Origin: Candidatus Nitrosoglobus terrae
Lineage (GTDB): Bacteria > Pseudomonadota > Gammaproteobacteria > Nitrosococcales > Nitrosococcaceae
NCBI RefSeq assembly: GCF_002356115.1
Contig: NZ_AP014836.1
Coordinates: forward strand, 62,001 to 126,000
Reading direction: 5' to 3'
Length of the DNA: 64,000 nt
This document shows positions 55,174 through 63,216 of this stretch, in pieces. The notes beneath the pieces are model-generated. The model saw nothing but the letters and a program-made list of their open reading frames with translations, was not told the origin of the DNA and did not search any database. The translations under genes were made by a program, and so were the position numbers. How positions within the stretch are numbered: position 1 is the first letter of the stretch; each line of letters starts with the position of its first letter.

Positions 55174-55980
55174 GTGGTGAATGATTTACCCGAATCATCT
55201 TTAGCTGAGCGGACGCTGGCAGTAGTGCAAGGGCGACCTATTACTGAGCTACCTAAAGATCTTTATATTCCTCCAGATGCCTTAGAAGTTTTTCTTGAAA
55301 GCTTTGAAGGACCATTGGATCTATTGCTTTATCTAATTCACAAACAAAATCTAGATATTTTAGATATCCCTATCGCTACGGTGACCCGCCAATATATGGA
55401 ATATATAGAGATTTTGCGTGATCTACGTTTAGAGCTAGCCGCAGAATATTTAGTCATGTCGGCTTGGCTAGCTGAAATCAAATCGCGAATGTTATTGCCC
55501 CGCCCTCAAGAGATTACTGAAGAGGAAGACGATCCTAGAGCCGAATTAGTTCGGCGTCTCCAAGAGTATGAACGTTATAAGCAAGCTGCTGAAGATTTGA
55601 GTTCTCTACCTAGAATAGGTCGAGATATCTTCGAAACAAGTGTGTATCTTGCTTCTGAGTATAGGGTTAAACTTGAGCCTAAACTTGAGCTAGCTGATCT
55701 CCTGTCTGCTCTTAAGCAGATTATAGCTCGAACAGAGTTATTAACTCATCATCATGTTGTTCAAGAAGCTCTATCAGTACGGGAGCGGATGGTAGAAGTG
55801 CTGAGTAAGGTGAATGCTGATACTTTTCGTGAGTTTACGACTTTGATTCATCCTAAAGAAGGGCGTTTAGGGATAGTGGTCACTTTTTTAGCTATATTAG
55901 AGCTAGCTAGAAAATCTTTACTAGAGGTAGCCCAAGCTGAGATTTATGGTTCTCTTCATATAAGAGCGATGGTAGAGTGA
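55174..55980 (+). CDS. scpA: Chromosome segregation protein ScpA
   Basis: 268-residue kleisin that joins SMC heads in the chromosome-condensation complex. The N-terminal segment with FEGPLDLLLYLIHKQNLDILDIPIATVTRQY is the SMC-neck binding helix bundle, the middle is acidic, and the C-terminal winged helix has VVTFLAILELARKSLL. It starts at GTG 55174. The stop overlaps the scpB start by 4 bp. Confidence 0.95.
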   Translation: MVNDLPESSLAERTLAVVQGRPITELPKDLYIPPDALEVFLESFEGPLDLLLYLIHKQNLDILDIPIATVTRQYMEYIEILRDLRLELAAEYLVMSAWLAEIKSRMLLPRPQEITEEEDDPRAELVRRLQEYERYKQAAEDLSSLPRIGRDIFETSVYLASEYRVKLEPKLELADLLSALKQIIARTELLTHHHVVQEALSVRERMVEVLSKVNADTFREFTTLIHPKEGRLGIVVTFLAILELARKSLLEVAQAEIYGSLHIRAMVE

Positions 55981-56594
55981 ATGACCTGTGTTCTCTAAAA
56001 AATATTATTGAAGCTGCTTTACTTGCAGCGGATCGACCCCTATCTATTGATGAGATTTGGGCTTTATTCGATGAAGAAGCACGACCCTCTCATAATCAAA
56101 TACAAAATATAATCAAGGAATTGATTGATGATTGGGGGATTAGAGCAATCGAGCTTAAAGAGGTTCATAGTGGTTACCGTTTTCAAGTACGCCAAGAGAT
56201 AGCTCCTTGGATTTCGAGACTTTGGGAGGAGAAGCCCTCTCGCTATTCTCGGGCATTCTTAGAAACGTTAGCTCTTATTGCGTATCGTCAACCCATTACC
56301 CGGGCGGAAGTTGAGGAGATTCGCGGCGTCTCTGTAAGTAGCGGGATCATAAGAACACTACAAGAGCGAGAATGGGTAAGAACTGTAGGGCATAGAGAGA
56401 CTCCTGGACGGCCAGCCTTGTATGGTACAACCCGAAAATTTCTGGATCAATTTAATCTTAAGAGTTTAAATGAACTACCTTCCTTAGCAGAGTTAAAAAT
56501 TTTAACCGATCCCAAAATAGGGTTTAAAACTAGTATGGGATTTATAGTTGACGCTACTGAAGAGGCCTATCAAAAAGAGATAACTTCTTCGTAA
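55977..56594 (+). CDS. scpB: Chromosome segregation protein ScpB
   Basis: 205-residue KITE-type partner of ScpA made of two winged-helix domains. Characteristic are LKNIIEAALLAADRPLSIDEIW at the start and SRAFLETLALIAYRQPITRAEVEEIRGV in the middle, then GRPALYGTT. It binds the ScpA middle region to complete the SMC-ScpAB condensin. It overlaps scpA (ATGA), and rluB follows after 37 bp. Confidence 0.96.
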   Translation: MNDLCSLKNIIEAALLAADRPLSIDEIWALFDEEARPSHNQIQNIIKELIDDWGIRAIELKEVHSGYRFQVRQEIAPWISRLWEEKPSRYSRAFLETLALIAYRQPITRAEVEEIRGVSVSSGIIRTLQEREWVRTVGHRETPGRPALYGTTRKFLDQFNLKSLNELPSLAELKILTDPKIGFKTSMGFIVDATEEAYQKEITSS

Positions 56595-56631
56595 TTAGGA
56601 TAAGTAAGGCTAGGAAAAGAATTCATTGAGA

Positions 56632-57420
56632 ATGGAGCGCTTGCAAAAAGTATTAGCGCGAGGAGGATTAGGTTCTCGCCGGGAAATTGAGACATGGATT
56701 AAGGCAGGTCGAATTCGGATTAATGGTACCTCAGCTCAGCTAGGTGATAAAGTTTCGATGACGGATCGAATTACTATTGATGGTCGGCCTATATCTCCTA
56801 AGCGATTACAATTTTCTCCTTCTTCTCAAGTCATTTTATACCATAAACCTACGGGTGAGATTTGTAGCCGTAAAGATCCTCAAGGTCGTCCTACTGTTTT
56901 TCAGTCACTACCGCGCCCCCAGCAGGGTCGGTGGATAAGTATTGGTCGCTTGGATATCAATACTTCGGGTCTGTTATTGTTTACTACCGAAGGTGAGATT
57001 GCCCACTGTTTAATGCATCCCTCTGCTCAAATAGAGCGAGAATATGCGGTTCGGGTTTTAGGAACGGTACAAGAATCTGCCCTTCAGCGTTTACAAGCAG
57101 GTGTACAGTTAGAAGATGGTTTAGCACGCTTTGAGCATATTTTGGATGCAGGTGGCGAAGGGGCTAATCACTGGTATCATGTTAAGCTCCGAGAGGGGAG
57201 AAAACGGGAAATTCGCCGACTTTGGGAATCTCAGGGTGCCCAAGTGAGTCGGCTAATACGTATTCGTTTTGGGCCGATTAGGTTACCGCCAAGATTACGG
57301 GCTGGCCGCTGGCATTTTTTGGAGTCATCCGAATTAAAAGCATTATTAGAAGTAGCTGGGATAGCACACCAACCTGTTACTAAACTGCAACCAATAGTAG
57401 GTAGACGAGTAAGGAGCTGA
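56632..57420 (+). CDS. rluB: 23S rRNA pseudouridine synthase RluB
   Basis: 262 residues from ATG 56632 (MERLQKVLARGGLGSRR); a TTG 6 bp upstream is possible. The N-terminal S4 RNA-binding domain is followed by the RsuA-type catalytic domain with GRLDINTSGLLLFTTEGEI, where the Asp is the nucleophile, and REGRKREIRRLWE. It isomerises U2605 of 23S rRNA in E. coli. The scpA-scpB-rluB order is widely conserved. It converges on the next gene with 25 bp between stops. Confidence 0.95.
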   Translation: MERLQKVLARGGLGSRREIETWIKAGRIRINGTSAQLGDKVSMTDRITIDGRPISPKRLQFSPSSQVILYHKPTGEICSRKDPQGRPTVFQSLPRPQQGRWISIGRLDINTSGLLLFTTEGEIAHCLMHPSAQIEREYAVRVLGTVQESALQRLQAGVQLEDGLARFEHILDAGGEGANHWYHVKLREGRKREIRRLWESQGAQVSRLIRIRFGPIRLPPRLRAGRWHFLESSELKALLEVAGIAHQPVTKLQPIVGRRVRS

Positions 57421-57445: not shown

Positions 57446-58306
57446 TTAATGCTTTGGAATAAGACCCCGTTGGGATCGCCGTGAAGTACGCCATGCGATC
57501 CAAAGCTTACGTAGCGGGGTTAAGGTAGTTTGTCGCTGTAGTAATAAATAGCCATCTTCTTCAATAGCATCTAAAACACTTAGGCAAAGGGCAGCCTGAA
57601 TCAGGCCGGCACGTTGTGAGTAGTAATTGTGTTTGTTAAGTAGGGTTAAGGCGTTGTGAAGGTAATGGCGGATTTGGCTTGCATAATGAGCGAATAAGGC
57701 GGAGAGGTTTTGGATATTATTGTTTCCGGCCAGAAGATCTTCTATAGAAATGCTGAGGGAATCTAATGTATCTTGAGATAAATAAACACGACCTCTATCA
57801 GCATCTTGGCGTACATTACGCAGGATATGAGTTAATTGTAGGGCAATACCTAACTGCTCGGCGTATTTTCGCGTCTTTTGATCTTGGTAGCCATAAATTT
57901 TAGCCGCCATTGCGCTGATAGTCCCAGCGATTTGATAACAATAAAGAACAAGATTTTCAAAAGTTGGATAGGTAAATTGCTCTAGATTACGGGTCACTCC
58001 TTCAATAACCTTAAGAAACAACTCTTGGGGTAGATTATAGATGCTGATAGGATAAGCTAAAGATTGAGTTATAGGATGTTTAGGATGGCCCGCAAATAAC
58101 CGGGAGATTTCCTCTTGCCACCATTGAAGCTTAGTTTCAGCAATAATAATCTCTGGGCATTCAATTACAATATCACTAATTTCTTTTTGATATGCATAAA
58201 GGGCAGTGACCGCTTGTTTTTGGTGCTCAGGCAGAAATAAAAGACTGTAGTAAAGACTAGTTCCAGGCTGAGCTACTTTGCTTTGGCAATACTCTACTGG
58301 ATTCAT
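57446..58306 (-). CDS. Squalene/phytoene synthase family protein with degenerate active-site motifs
   Basis: 286 residues matching the HpnD/CrtB-type fold along the whole length: YCQSKVAQPGTSLYYSLLFLP at the start, TKLQWWQEEI, then IALQLTHILRNVRQD and RGRVYLSQD. Both aspartate motifs that bind the Mg-diphosphate are altered. The first, usually DDVVDE, is SDIVIE at residues 44-49. In the second, usually D-x-x-E-D, Asn164 and Gln167 replace acidic residues and only Asp168 remains. It may therefore be a non-catalytic member, like NDUFAF6-type assembly factors. No hopanoid genes lie nearby. Confidence 0.85.
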   Translation of the reverse strand: MNPVEYCQSKVAQPGTSLYYSLLFLPEHQKQAVTALYAYQKEISDIVIECPEIIIAETKLQWWQEEISRLFAGHPKHPITQSLAYPISIYNLPQELFLKVIEGVTRNLEQFTYPTFENLVLYCYQIAGTISAMAAKIYGYQDQKTRKYAEQLGIALQLTHILRNVRQDADRGRVYLSQDTLDSLSISIEDLLAGNNNIQNLSALFAHYASQIRHYLHNALTLLNKHNYYSQRAGLIQAALCLSVLDAIEEDGYLLLQRQTTLTPLRKLWIAWRTSRRSQRGLIPKH

Positions 58307-58320
58307 TGTAGTAGTAGTAC

Positions 58321-58635
58321 TTAAATCCGTAAGCGAACAACCGGACGGCCATTGATTAGGTGCTCGCTGATAATTTCATCAATGTCTTTATGGTTGGTAT
58401 AGCTATACCAAATTCCTTCTGGGTAGACGACTATGGCGGGTCCTTGAGCGCATCGATTAAGGCATCCTGCAATATTAATGCGTACTTGATGGTTTTTTGC
58501 TAATCCCAGTGCTTTAATTTTTTCCTTAGCATAACTTCGAAATGCTGAGGAGTTATGATCTTGACAACAGGGGCGGCCGTTATCTCGCTGATTGGTGCAA
58601 AAAAATACATGATAACGATAGTAAGACTCGTTCAT
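58321..58635 (-). CDS. Thioredoxin-like 2Fe-2S ferredoxin
   Basis: 104 residues from ATG 58635 (MNESYYRYHVFFCTNQR). The frame is open upstream, but that part overlaps erpA; ATG 58659 is an alternative. The cluster cysteines follow the thioredoxin-fold ferredoxin pattern: Cys13 with Cys23/24 in the first half, then AGCLNRCAQGPAIVVYPEG (Cys58 and Cys62). It is probably a small soluble electron carrier. It lies 41 bp after erpA, whose product helps make Fe-S proteins. Confidence 0.88.
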   Translation of the reverse strand: MNESYYRYHVFFCTNQRDNGRPCCQDHNSSAFRSYAKEKIKALGLAKNHQVRINIAGCLNRCAQGPAIVVYPEGIWYSYTNHKDIDEIISEHLINGRPVVRLRI

Positions 58636-58676
58636 AGATAATGATCTTGAAATAGACATGTAGAGATAGAGAGCGT

Positions 58677-59027
58677 TTAAGCAGAGAAGGATGATCCACA
58701 GCCACAAGTGGTTGTAGCGTTAGGGTTTCTAATCACAAACTCAGATCCTTCTACACTTTCAGTATAATCAATTTCTGCTCCTATTAGATACTGATAGCTC
58801 GTGGGATCGATGAGCAAGGTAACCCCCTGTTTTTCTACCTGAGTATCATCTTCATTAAGAGTGTCGTCAAAGGTAAAACCATATTGAAAGCCTGAGCATC
58901 CACCCCCGCTAATAAATACACGTAGCATCAAATTTTTATTACCTTCTTCTTCAATAAGTTCTTTAACTTTAGTAGCGGCGGCATCAGTGAATGTTAATAA
59001 AACTGGTGTAGTATCAATTGTGTTCAT
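58677..59027 (-). CDS. erpA: Iron-sulfur cluster insertion protein ErpA
   Basis: 116-residue A-type carrier that delivers Fe-S clusters to target proteins. The three conserved cysteines are in [15 protein letters not shown] and the C-terminal [25 protein letters not shown] in the middle is typical of ErpA rather than IscA. It forms a minus-strand group with bactofilin and argC upstream and the ferredoxin downstream, an order seen in other gammaproteobacteria. Confidence 0.96.
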
Positions 59028-61644: not shown

Positions 61645-63216
61645 TTAATGGCGAAAATGCCGTACTCCAGTGAAAATCATAGCAATGTTATGTTCATTAG
61701 CTGCTGCAATTACCTCATGGTCTCGCCTAGATCCACCAGGCTGAATAATAGCACTGACACCCATTTCTGCTGCTGTATCTAAACCATCTCGAAAAGGAAA
61801 AAAAGCATCTGAGGCTAACACTGCACCTGAGACTAAAAATCCTGCCTCTTTAGCTTTAAGTCCTGCAATTTGGCTACTCATGACCCGGCTTGTTTGTCCA
61901 GCACCAATACCTATTGTTTGCTCATTTTTAGCATAGACAATAGCGTTGGATTTGACAAATTTCACTACTCGCCAAGCAAATAAGAGATCTTTAGCTTCTT
62001 GAGAAGTCGGTGATCGCGTTGTAACTGCCTGCGGTAGTTCTGAAGGTGCTAATCTTTGATCCTGTTCTTGAATTAATAAACCCCCGGCAACTCGTTTATA
62101 GTCCAAATTAGGTATTGGCTGGGATGGCCATTCACCACAAGTTAGCACCCGTATATTGGGCTTAGCCGCTAATACGGCTTGAGCGGTTATGTCTATTGTT
62201 GGGGTAATAATAACTTCAGCAAATTGGCGTTCAATGATAATTTTTGCTGTCAATGCATCTAATGGGCAGTTAAAGGCAATAATACCGCCAAAAGCTGAAA
62301 TAGGATCAGCACTATACGCCCGTTCGTAAGCTTCTTCGAGGGATTTTCCGATGGCTACCCCGCAAGGATTGGCGTGCTTGACTATAACGCAGGTAGGCGT
62401 GTTGGGAAATGATTTAACACACTCTAAAGCGGCATCGGTATCAGCTATGTTATTAAAAGAAAGATCCTTGCCTTGTAATTGCTGAGCCGCAGCAACAGTT
62501 CCCTTCTGAGGGGTATGATCTACATAGAATGCAGCTTGTTGATGAGGGTTTTCGCCATATCGTAATTCCTGTTTTTTAATACATTGAATACTATAGTCGT
62601 GCGGAAAATTTATTTTTTTATCTTTTAAAGAGAGTTTTTCTAGATAATTAGCAATAACTGTGTCATAAGCTGCAGTATGCTTAAAGCTTTTAACTGCAAG
62701 CTCAAAGCGAGTAGCAGGTGAAATAAATCCATTGTTTATTTTTATCTCAGCGAGGATAAGTTCGTAATCAGTTGGATCAGTTACCACCACGACAGATTCA
62801 TAATTTTTAGCGGCTGCTCGTAGTAGCGCTGGCCCACCAATATCAATATTCTCAATGATAGTGGGCAGGCTAGACTTTGGGTTTGCTATTGTTTGTTCAA
62901 ACGGATAGAGATTAACAACAACTAGATCAATAGGTTTGATACCATATTCAGCCATAATAGGGGCATCAGCCTCTCTCCGCCCTAGAATACCTCCGTGAAT
63001 CTTAGGGTGAAGACTTTTGATACGCCCTCCCATCATTTCTGGGAATTGGGTATAGTCTGATACCTCTATCACCTTAATATGATGTTCTTGAAGTAATGCA
63101 GCAGTACCTCCGGTAGATAGTATTTCAACGCCATAGGTCGTTTGCAGCTGACGTGCAAATTCTGTCACTTTGCTCTTATCGGAAACGCTAATAAGCGCAC
63201 GTTTTATAGATTCCAT
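61645..63216 (-). CDS. purH: Bifunctional AICAR formyltransferase / IMP cyclohydrolase
   Basis: 523 residues catalysing the last two steps of IMP synthesis. The N-terminal IMP cyclohydrolase domain (MGS-like fold) has [17 protein letters not shown] and STGGTAALL. The larger C-terminal formyltransferase domain has the catalytic Lys-His of [23 protein letters not shown], and the C-terminal [14 protein letters not shown]. The upstream gene on the same strand is fis, a less common neighbour than purD but usual where fis sits between prmA and purH. Confidence 0.97.

Follow-up and report, generated by a model that had tools for sequence, protein, structure and literature searches.

A conserved HpnD homologue without catalytic motifs in Candidatus Nitrosoglobus terrae: a candidate pseudo-synthase with a possible role in complex I biogenesis

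We analyzed a 64,000-nucleotide stretch of DNA from Candidatus Nitrosoglobus terrae (the window; assembly GCF_002356115.1, contig NZ_AP014836.1, forward-strand positions 62,001 to 126,000) around a gene whose product resembles HpnD, the presqualene diphosphate synthase. Throughout, proteins of HpnD type with 0 to 3 of the five catalytic aspartates are called dead and those with all five are called active. The features of the locus, in window coordinates, are as follows.

55174..56594, plus strand: scpA-scpB, conserved flank (label by sequence recognition)
56626..57420, plus strand: rluB, convergent neighbor (label by sequence recognition)
57446..58306, minus strand: HpnD homologue of 286 aa, very likely catalytically degenerate (a putative pseudo presqualene diphosphate synthase)
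57491..57517, minus strand: C-terminal patch P264-LRKLW-x2-W272 (TPLRKLW), kept in dead and active HpnD
57803..57817, minus strand: former motif II, residues 164 to 168, NVRQD (DxxxD in relatives)
58073..58123, minus strand: patch W62-W63-x2-E66 ... H77-P78, conserved in both dead and active HpnD
58160..58177, minus strand: former motif I, residues 44 to 49, SDIVIE (DDxxDE in relatives)
58321..58707, minus strand: small [2Fe-2S] ferredoxin-like gene (family models matched under their cut-offs; true start probably inside the ORF)
58677..59027, minus strand: erpA, iron-sulfur cluster insertion protein, upstream of the HpnD homologue on the same strand

The reading frame of the HpnD homologue begins with ATG and is intact. 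The first-pass annotation had claimed a fold-wide match to HpnD-type synthases, and profile searches bore this out: PF00494 (SQS_PSY) scored 207 bits and TIGR03465 (HpnD) 288 bits against a cut-off of 278.6, each over nearly the entire length of the protein. The HpnD family cut-off was thus passed by a protein in which both DDxxD (motif I) and DxxxD (motif II) failed. A structure predicted from an input of 30 sequences (the window's protein and those of other loci) had a mean pLDDT of 95, and its top structural matches were CrtM-type synthases with Z of about 30 (3vjd, 272 residues, rmsd 2.4, 23% identity). Both motif sites were ungapped in the alignment with relatives and read as the annotation had read them; its statement that most catalytic aspartates were lost was also right, three of five being gone and two left. 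In the numbering of S. aureus CrtM, D48, D52, and D172 were replaced and D49 and D176 left, and R171 was retained. We also considered aspartates moved to an adjacent position, which the annotation had named as a contrary outcome; this was ruled out, since none was displaced in the ungapped alignment. The HpnD homologue is a retained protein without catalytic motifs, and, judged from its residues, catalysis has very likely been lost.

In each of the six f1 genomes (f1 being the family of the window), the gene had an open frame and the AMO family was matched, from which we take f1 to be presumably the ammonia-oxidizing Nitrosococcaceae. The other five genomes keep one or zero of the five aspartates: four genomes of genus g2 read VGIVAE with NVRQD or NIRQD (one of five), and G002 has none of the five (INISLE and NTRQY), its orthologue scoring 210.8 bits with TIGR03465, under the HpnD cut-off. 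All 24 proteins read from the sister family (f2) had five of five. Because the motifs are missing from 6/6 f1 genomes in related but differing ways, chance or sequencing error is excluded. In two close f1 pairs, dN/dS of the HpnD homologue was 0.129 and 0.191, the highest among eight genes in one pair and the second highest in the other (for comparison, ScpB, 0.15 and 0.12; RluB, 0.12 and 0.13; TrpS, 0.04 and 0.02). The gene is clearly under purifying selection, though at the upper end of the eight genes, and the earlier argument against a decaying gene holds. Separately, a 1.1-Mb genome of f2 (G009; locus L099, G009:C6:187000-202000) has an intact NuoD but only a remnant of hpnD, interrupted by 11 in-frame stops.

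The stop codon of the ferredoxin-like gene lies 14 bp before the HpnD homologue, and this gene adjoins hpnD in 5/5 other f1 loci and in 8/9 f2 loci examined. Both families of the order thus have a [2Fe-2S] ferredoxin-like gene beside hpnD, the dead and the active form alike. The gene order in f2 is ferredoxin (8/9), active hpnD, hpnE (8/9), a yciK-like SDR, mostly followed by one or two further genes, and then rluB; the one f2 hpnE that was profile-tested scored 403 bits with TIGR03467. Family f1 lacks the genes that separate hpnD from rluB in f2, and hpnE is absent from the window's locus. The window's protein is accordingly like HpnD in passing the family cut-off, in carrying the same noncatalytic surface motifs, and in its f2-like locus (ferredoxin, hpnD ... 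rluB), but it differs in that both aspartate motifs are broken, no hpnE lies beside it, and its genome has no HpnC.

To place the dead form more widely, we used a sample of 274 gammaproteobacterial genomes and assigned class by reading the motif columns. Dead HpnD was found in 50 genomes and active HpnD in 68, with five aspartates read in 68/68 of the latter. Among the matches listed, no genome had both forms, where 12.4 would be expected if they were independent (P = 1.1e-7). Reduced to one genome per family, and again among the matches listed, the counts were 29 dead, 40 active, and none with both of 159 (P = 8e-5); genomes are not independent, and this count corrects for kinship only partly. 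Second copies in active genomes scored lower with a dead-protein model than with the HpnD model, among the matches listed, and were judged not dead by these scores and only in part by reading. Absence in these counts means that a genome was not among the listed matches. The HpnD model matched 164 genomes, of which 46 had weaker matches only and were all counted as having neither form; the four of these that were read had aspartates and belonged to other subfamilies, the remaining 42 are unread, and the neither class may therefore hide more dead forms. Among the dead loci, contig ends truncate L118, L177, and L189, and L187 is split, without motif II. Three families (f65, f148, and f152) have the dead form in one sampled genome and the active form in another. 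A scan of named genome contigs gave only five loci, none from the window's family. Betaproteobacteria seem to have the dead form too: at locus L202, from a metagenome-assembled record titled Janthinobacterium lividum, an HpnD without the motifs lies near ubiG, a yciK-like SDR, and rluB. The literature searched yielded no account of an HpnD lacking catalysis, nor of mutual exclusion of dead and active forms, and we do not claim priority.

Trees were used to count the catalytic losses. In a quick tree that included the motif columns, all 52 dead proteins lay on one side of a branch with an SH-aLRT of 97. When motif columns and long rows were removed, the dead protein at L115 (G208) grouped with the active protein of its own family (99/83; 98/93). 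AU tests kept both a tree with all dead proteins in a single clade (p = 0.655, with a likelihood 9.65 above the free tree) and a tree in which f1 was joined to f2 (p = 0.472), so that neither one loss in the gammaproteobacteria nor a grouping of f1 with active f2 is excluded.

The residues that survive are not those of the active site. Among the 55 dead loci, the number retaining each residue is 54 for W62, 55 for W63, 50 for E66, 55 for H77, 53 for P78, and 47 for W269; P264 is kept in 52, and the other three loci do not cover the site. Each of these seven residues is kept in 55 to 61 of 61 active loci. Pocket residues behave otherwise: N168, Y41, R or K at position 45, and R171 are each present in 61/61 active loci, versus 1, 13, 18, and 22 of the 55 dead loci, respectively. 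Eighteen of the 55 dead loci have no aspartate at all (in one of them motif II is not covered). CrtM and HpnC, which are active enzymes with aspartates, share the fold of the window's protein (2zco, Z 30.1; 4hd1, Z 25.9) but stand at 23% identity and are without W62, W63, and H77 in pairwise alignments. Conservation of the patches with loss of the pocket indicates that selection keeps the HpnD surface and not the active site.

The first-pass annotation had suggested that the protein may be a pseudo-enzyme with another role, as NDUFAF6 is for complex I in mitochondria. The genome of the window carries nuoA, nuoB, nuoD, nuoF, nuoH, and nuoJ as well as a gene of DUF498 (PF04430), which we take to be the family of the assembly factor NDUFAF3, and NuoD is present in 6/6 f1 genomes. 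Across the sample, NuoD was over its cut-off in 228/274 genomes; ten matches under the cut-off were picked by E value. Of the 118 genomes with an HpnD of either form, 111 had NuoD, versus 117 of 156 others (P = 1.7e-5); with one genome per family, the counts were 65/69 versus 66/90 (P = 6e-4). Dead-form genomes alone had NuoD in 46/50 cases, versus 117/156 for genomes of the neither class (P = 0.009; 0.036 with one genome per family); set against all other genomes, they gave a P value of 0.09. As NuoD is so common, the association of the dead form is modest. It is no weaker for active HpnD and so may stem from lifestyle or ancestry. DUF498 behaved similarly, with 111/118 genomes with either form versus 109/156 others (P = 2.3e-7), and itself tracks NuoD (P = 1.6e-15). 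Within NuoD genomes, HpnD accompanies DUF498 (P = 0.008; one per family, 0.096), and within DUF498-bearing genomes NuoD is no longer predicted by HpnD (P = 0.19). The dead-form genomes without NuoD over the cut-off are G062, G113, G230, and G300, and those without DUF498 are G062, G107, G245, and G255. The decayed hpnD of G009, which retains NuoD, together with the 117 of 228 NuoD genomes counted as having neither form, indicates that HpnD is not generally required for complex I.

Homologues from another class of the same phylum, which we judge from gene content and genome size to be Alphaproteobacteria, provide a second line of association. We read 16 such loci, chosen from 20 (three of the others had aspartates, and one was a lone dead form of family f192, whose main matches, at 240 to 300 bits, were left out of the reading), and in all 16 neither motif is intact. 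W62 and W63 are each present in 16/16, H77 in 10/16, and P78 in 14/16. A DUF498 gene lies at most three genes upstream in 11 of the 16, one identified by model and the rest by BLAST cluster. In 13/16 of these loci (L224 to L235 and L237 to L240), the motif-less PSY-fold genes lie downstream of genes that by eye are SecD/SecF-like; the secDF neighborhood of NDUFAF3 and NDUFAF6 homologues in alphaproteobacteria may already be published. The motif places read AxxxD in 7/16 and AxxxH in 7/16, with both in one protein, and 13 have H at the D176 place. The wider tree separates the outside-class homologues from the gammaproteobacterial proteins; support near the root is weak (92/76).

PMC12470011 and PMC8007014 describe NDUFAF6 (C8orf38) as having an SQS/PSY fold without working DxxxD motifs; the former gives AxxxD and AxxxH/SxxxH at the motif places in human and Arabidopsis, not in Drosophila, and the latter places four bacterial proteins as outgroup orthologues of a fungal NDUFAF6 homologue. 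Tight coevolution of NDUFAF3, C8orf38, and C2orf56 is reported in PMC3436739. Compared with NDUFAF6 as known from these published descriptions, the window's protein is alike in its fold without DxxxD and in a host with complex I, but it reads SxxxI and NxxxD, not AxxxD/AxxxH, a pattern that is partial in the outside-class homologues. No NDUFAF6 chain was among the 21 PDB sequence matches of the HpnD homologue, which excludes nothing.

The explanation that we favor is that a former presqualene diphosphate synthase lost its catalytic motifs and kept a second, noncatalytic job, which would be an NDUFAF6-like one in the biogenesis of complex I (NDH-1). The protein would probably act at the NuoH/Q-module stage, jointly with the DUF498 (NDUFAF3-type) protein; it may bind subunits of complex I, or an isoprenoid in their vicinity, and the WW-x2-E/HP and TPLRKLW patches may form the working surface. 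Of the annotation's suggestion, the retained, motif-less HpnD stands as observed; the role is the best-supported explanation, argued by association from the co-occurrence with NuoD and DUF498, from DUF498 near the outside-class homologues, and from the partial AxxxD/AxxxH pattern there, and we rate its chances as about even. A broader version is more tentative and, on balance, doubtful: gammaproteobacterial HpnD would have two jobs, making presqualene diphosphate and serving complex I biogenesis through a separate surface, so that dead HpnD stays where hpnC and hpnE are lost because another squalene route exists or none is needed. A single gene would then exist in an active and a dead state, and NDUFAF6 would have arisen by the same kind of change in the mitochondrial line.

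Gene neighborhoods bear on the foremost alternative, a noncatalytic isoprenoid- or quinone-binding protein that serves ubiquinone synthesis or general respiration (e.g., complex II) and not complex I specifically. We compared clusters of five ORFs on each side of 54 dead and 35 active loci; flank lengths were unequal and ORFs came from a simple script, so that the counts are rough lower bounds. A yciK-like SDR was nearby in 16/54 dead versus 19/35 active loci and rluB, which also accompanies many loci of either kind, in 15/54 versus 14/35; these common neighbors suggest that dead and active loci are related. For hpnE the counts were 1/54 versus 21/35 and for hpnC 0/54 versus 9/35, so the dead form occurs where the partner genes are missing. 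Ten dead loci (L110, L114, L161, L164, L166, L169, L172, L178, L181, and L187) and none of the 35 active ones have sdhA nearby, and an SdhD-like gene is also present at eight of those ten. Near dead HpnD, ubiG was found in 22/54 loci and a gph-like gene in 20/54; together with the yciK-like SDR and, at times, sdh, such neighbors point to quinone metabolism or general respiration, not to nuo, and no nuo gene adjoins the HpnD homologue in the window. The sdhA counts and the prenyl synthase fold favor this alternative as well. Since ubiG (3/35) and the gph-like gene (9/35) also occur near active HpnD, the linkage may be inherited, and neither gene lies near the HpnD homologue in the window. We consider a quinone-related or general respiratory role unlikely.

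Changed catalysis would explain the retained gene differently, with the two remaining aspartates still acting on FPP, for example as a YisP-like phosphatase. YisP of B. subtilis has an altered active site and is reported to be a phosphatase on FPP; its structure (3we9) has the same fold as the model (Z 25.9, rmsd 2.3, 236 residues), and the window's protein keeps the D49 and D176 equivalents and R171. Identity to YisP is 18 to 20% in fold alignments. Against this reading, the other f1 genomes are down to one or no aspartate, the 18 dead loci noted above have none, and N168 survives at a single dead locus. These losses make a changed catalytic activity quite improbable.

A third alternative is that the protein is a regulatory or scaffold partner of an SQS-hopanoid pathway, one that has taken the place of HpnCDE. 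Each f1 genome has two PF00494 genes, the HpnD homologue and an SQS-type gene, and in 6/6 the SQS-type match lies 1.1 to 1.2 kb from a squalene-hopene cyclase (SHC) match; the SHC family was matched in 0/53 f2 genomes. The first-pass annotation had raised the possibility of a second, intact HpnD in the genome. None was found, the intact paralogue being the SQS-type gene beside SHC, with motifs DTIEDE and NILKDIWDD. It scored 118 bits against a curated SQS cut-off of 287, so that its name rests on motifs and place. HpnC is absent from the window's genome, as neither PF00494 gene qualifies (the SQS type scored 50 bits against the HpnC cut-off of 250). In that genome, the SQS-type gene, SHC, and a gene of 253 aa (HpnG-like by eye) stand in tandem (L101:8913-12791). 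Given the SQS-type gene beside SHC in all six genomes, squalene synthesis in f1 probably does not require the HpnD homologue. With SHC counted at E < 1e-50 (41 of 54 matching genomes), it is commoner with the dead form (17/50) than with the active form (2/68), which, with the SQS-SHC pair in the window's genome, speaks for a hopanoid partner. Stated the other way, a strong SHC match is absent from 66 of the 68 genomes with intact HpnD in the 274-genome sample. Yet it is absent from 33 of the 50 dead-form genomes too, and 1.3 Mb of a 2.0-Mb contig separate the HpnD homologue from SQS-SHC, so we regard a hopanoid partner as very improbable. A functionless relic in slow decay, for which the G009 copy offers a precedent, is strongly disfavored by dN/dS of 0.13 to 0.19, the open frames in all six f1 genomes, and surface patches kept across distant families.

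If the complex I reading is true, these loci would amount to many natural bacterial examples of isoprenoid synthases that became respiratory helpers, in hosts amenable to gene deletion, and NDUFAF6 function and any lipid or isoprenoid binding would become testable in bacteria. The window's protein, which scores over the HpnD cut-off despite its broken motifs, also shows that annotation as HpnD can lead to a false prediction of squalene synthesis.
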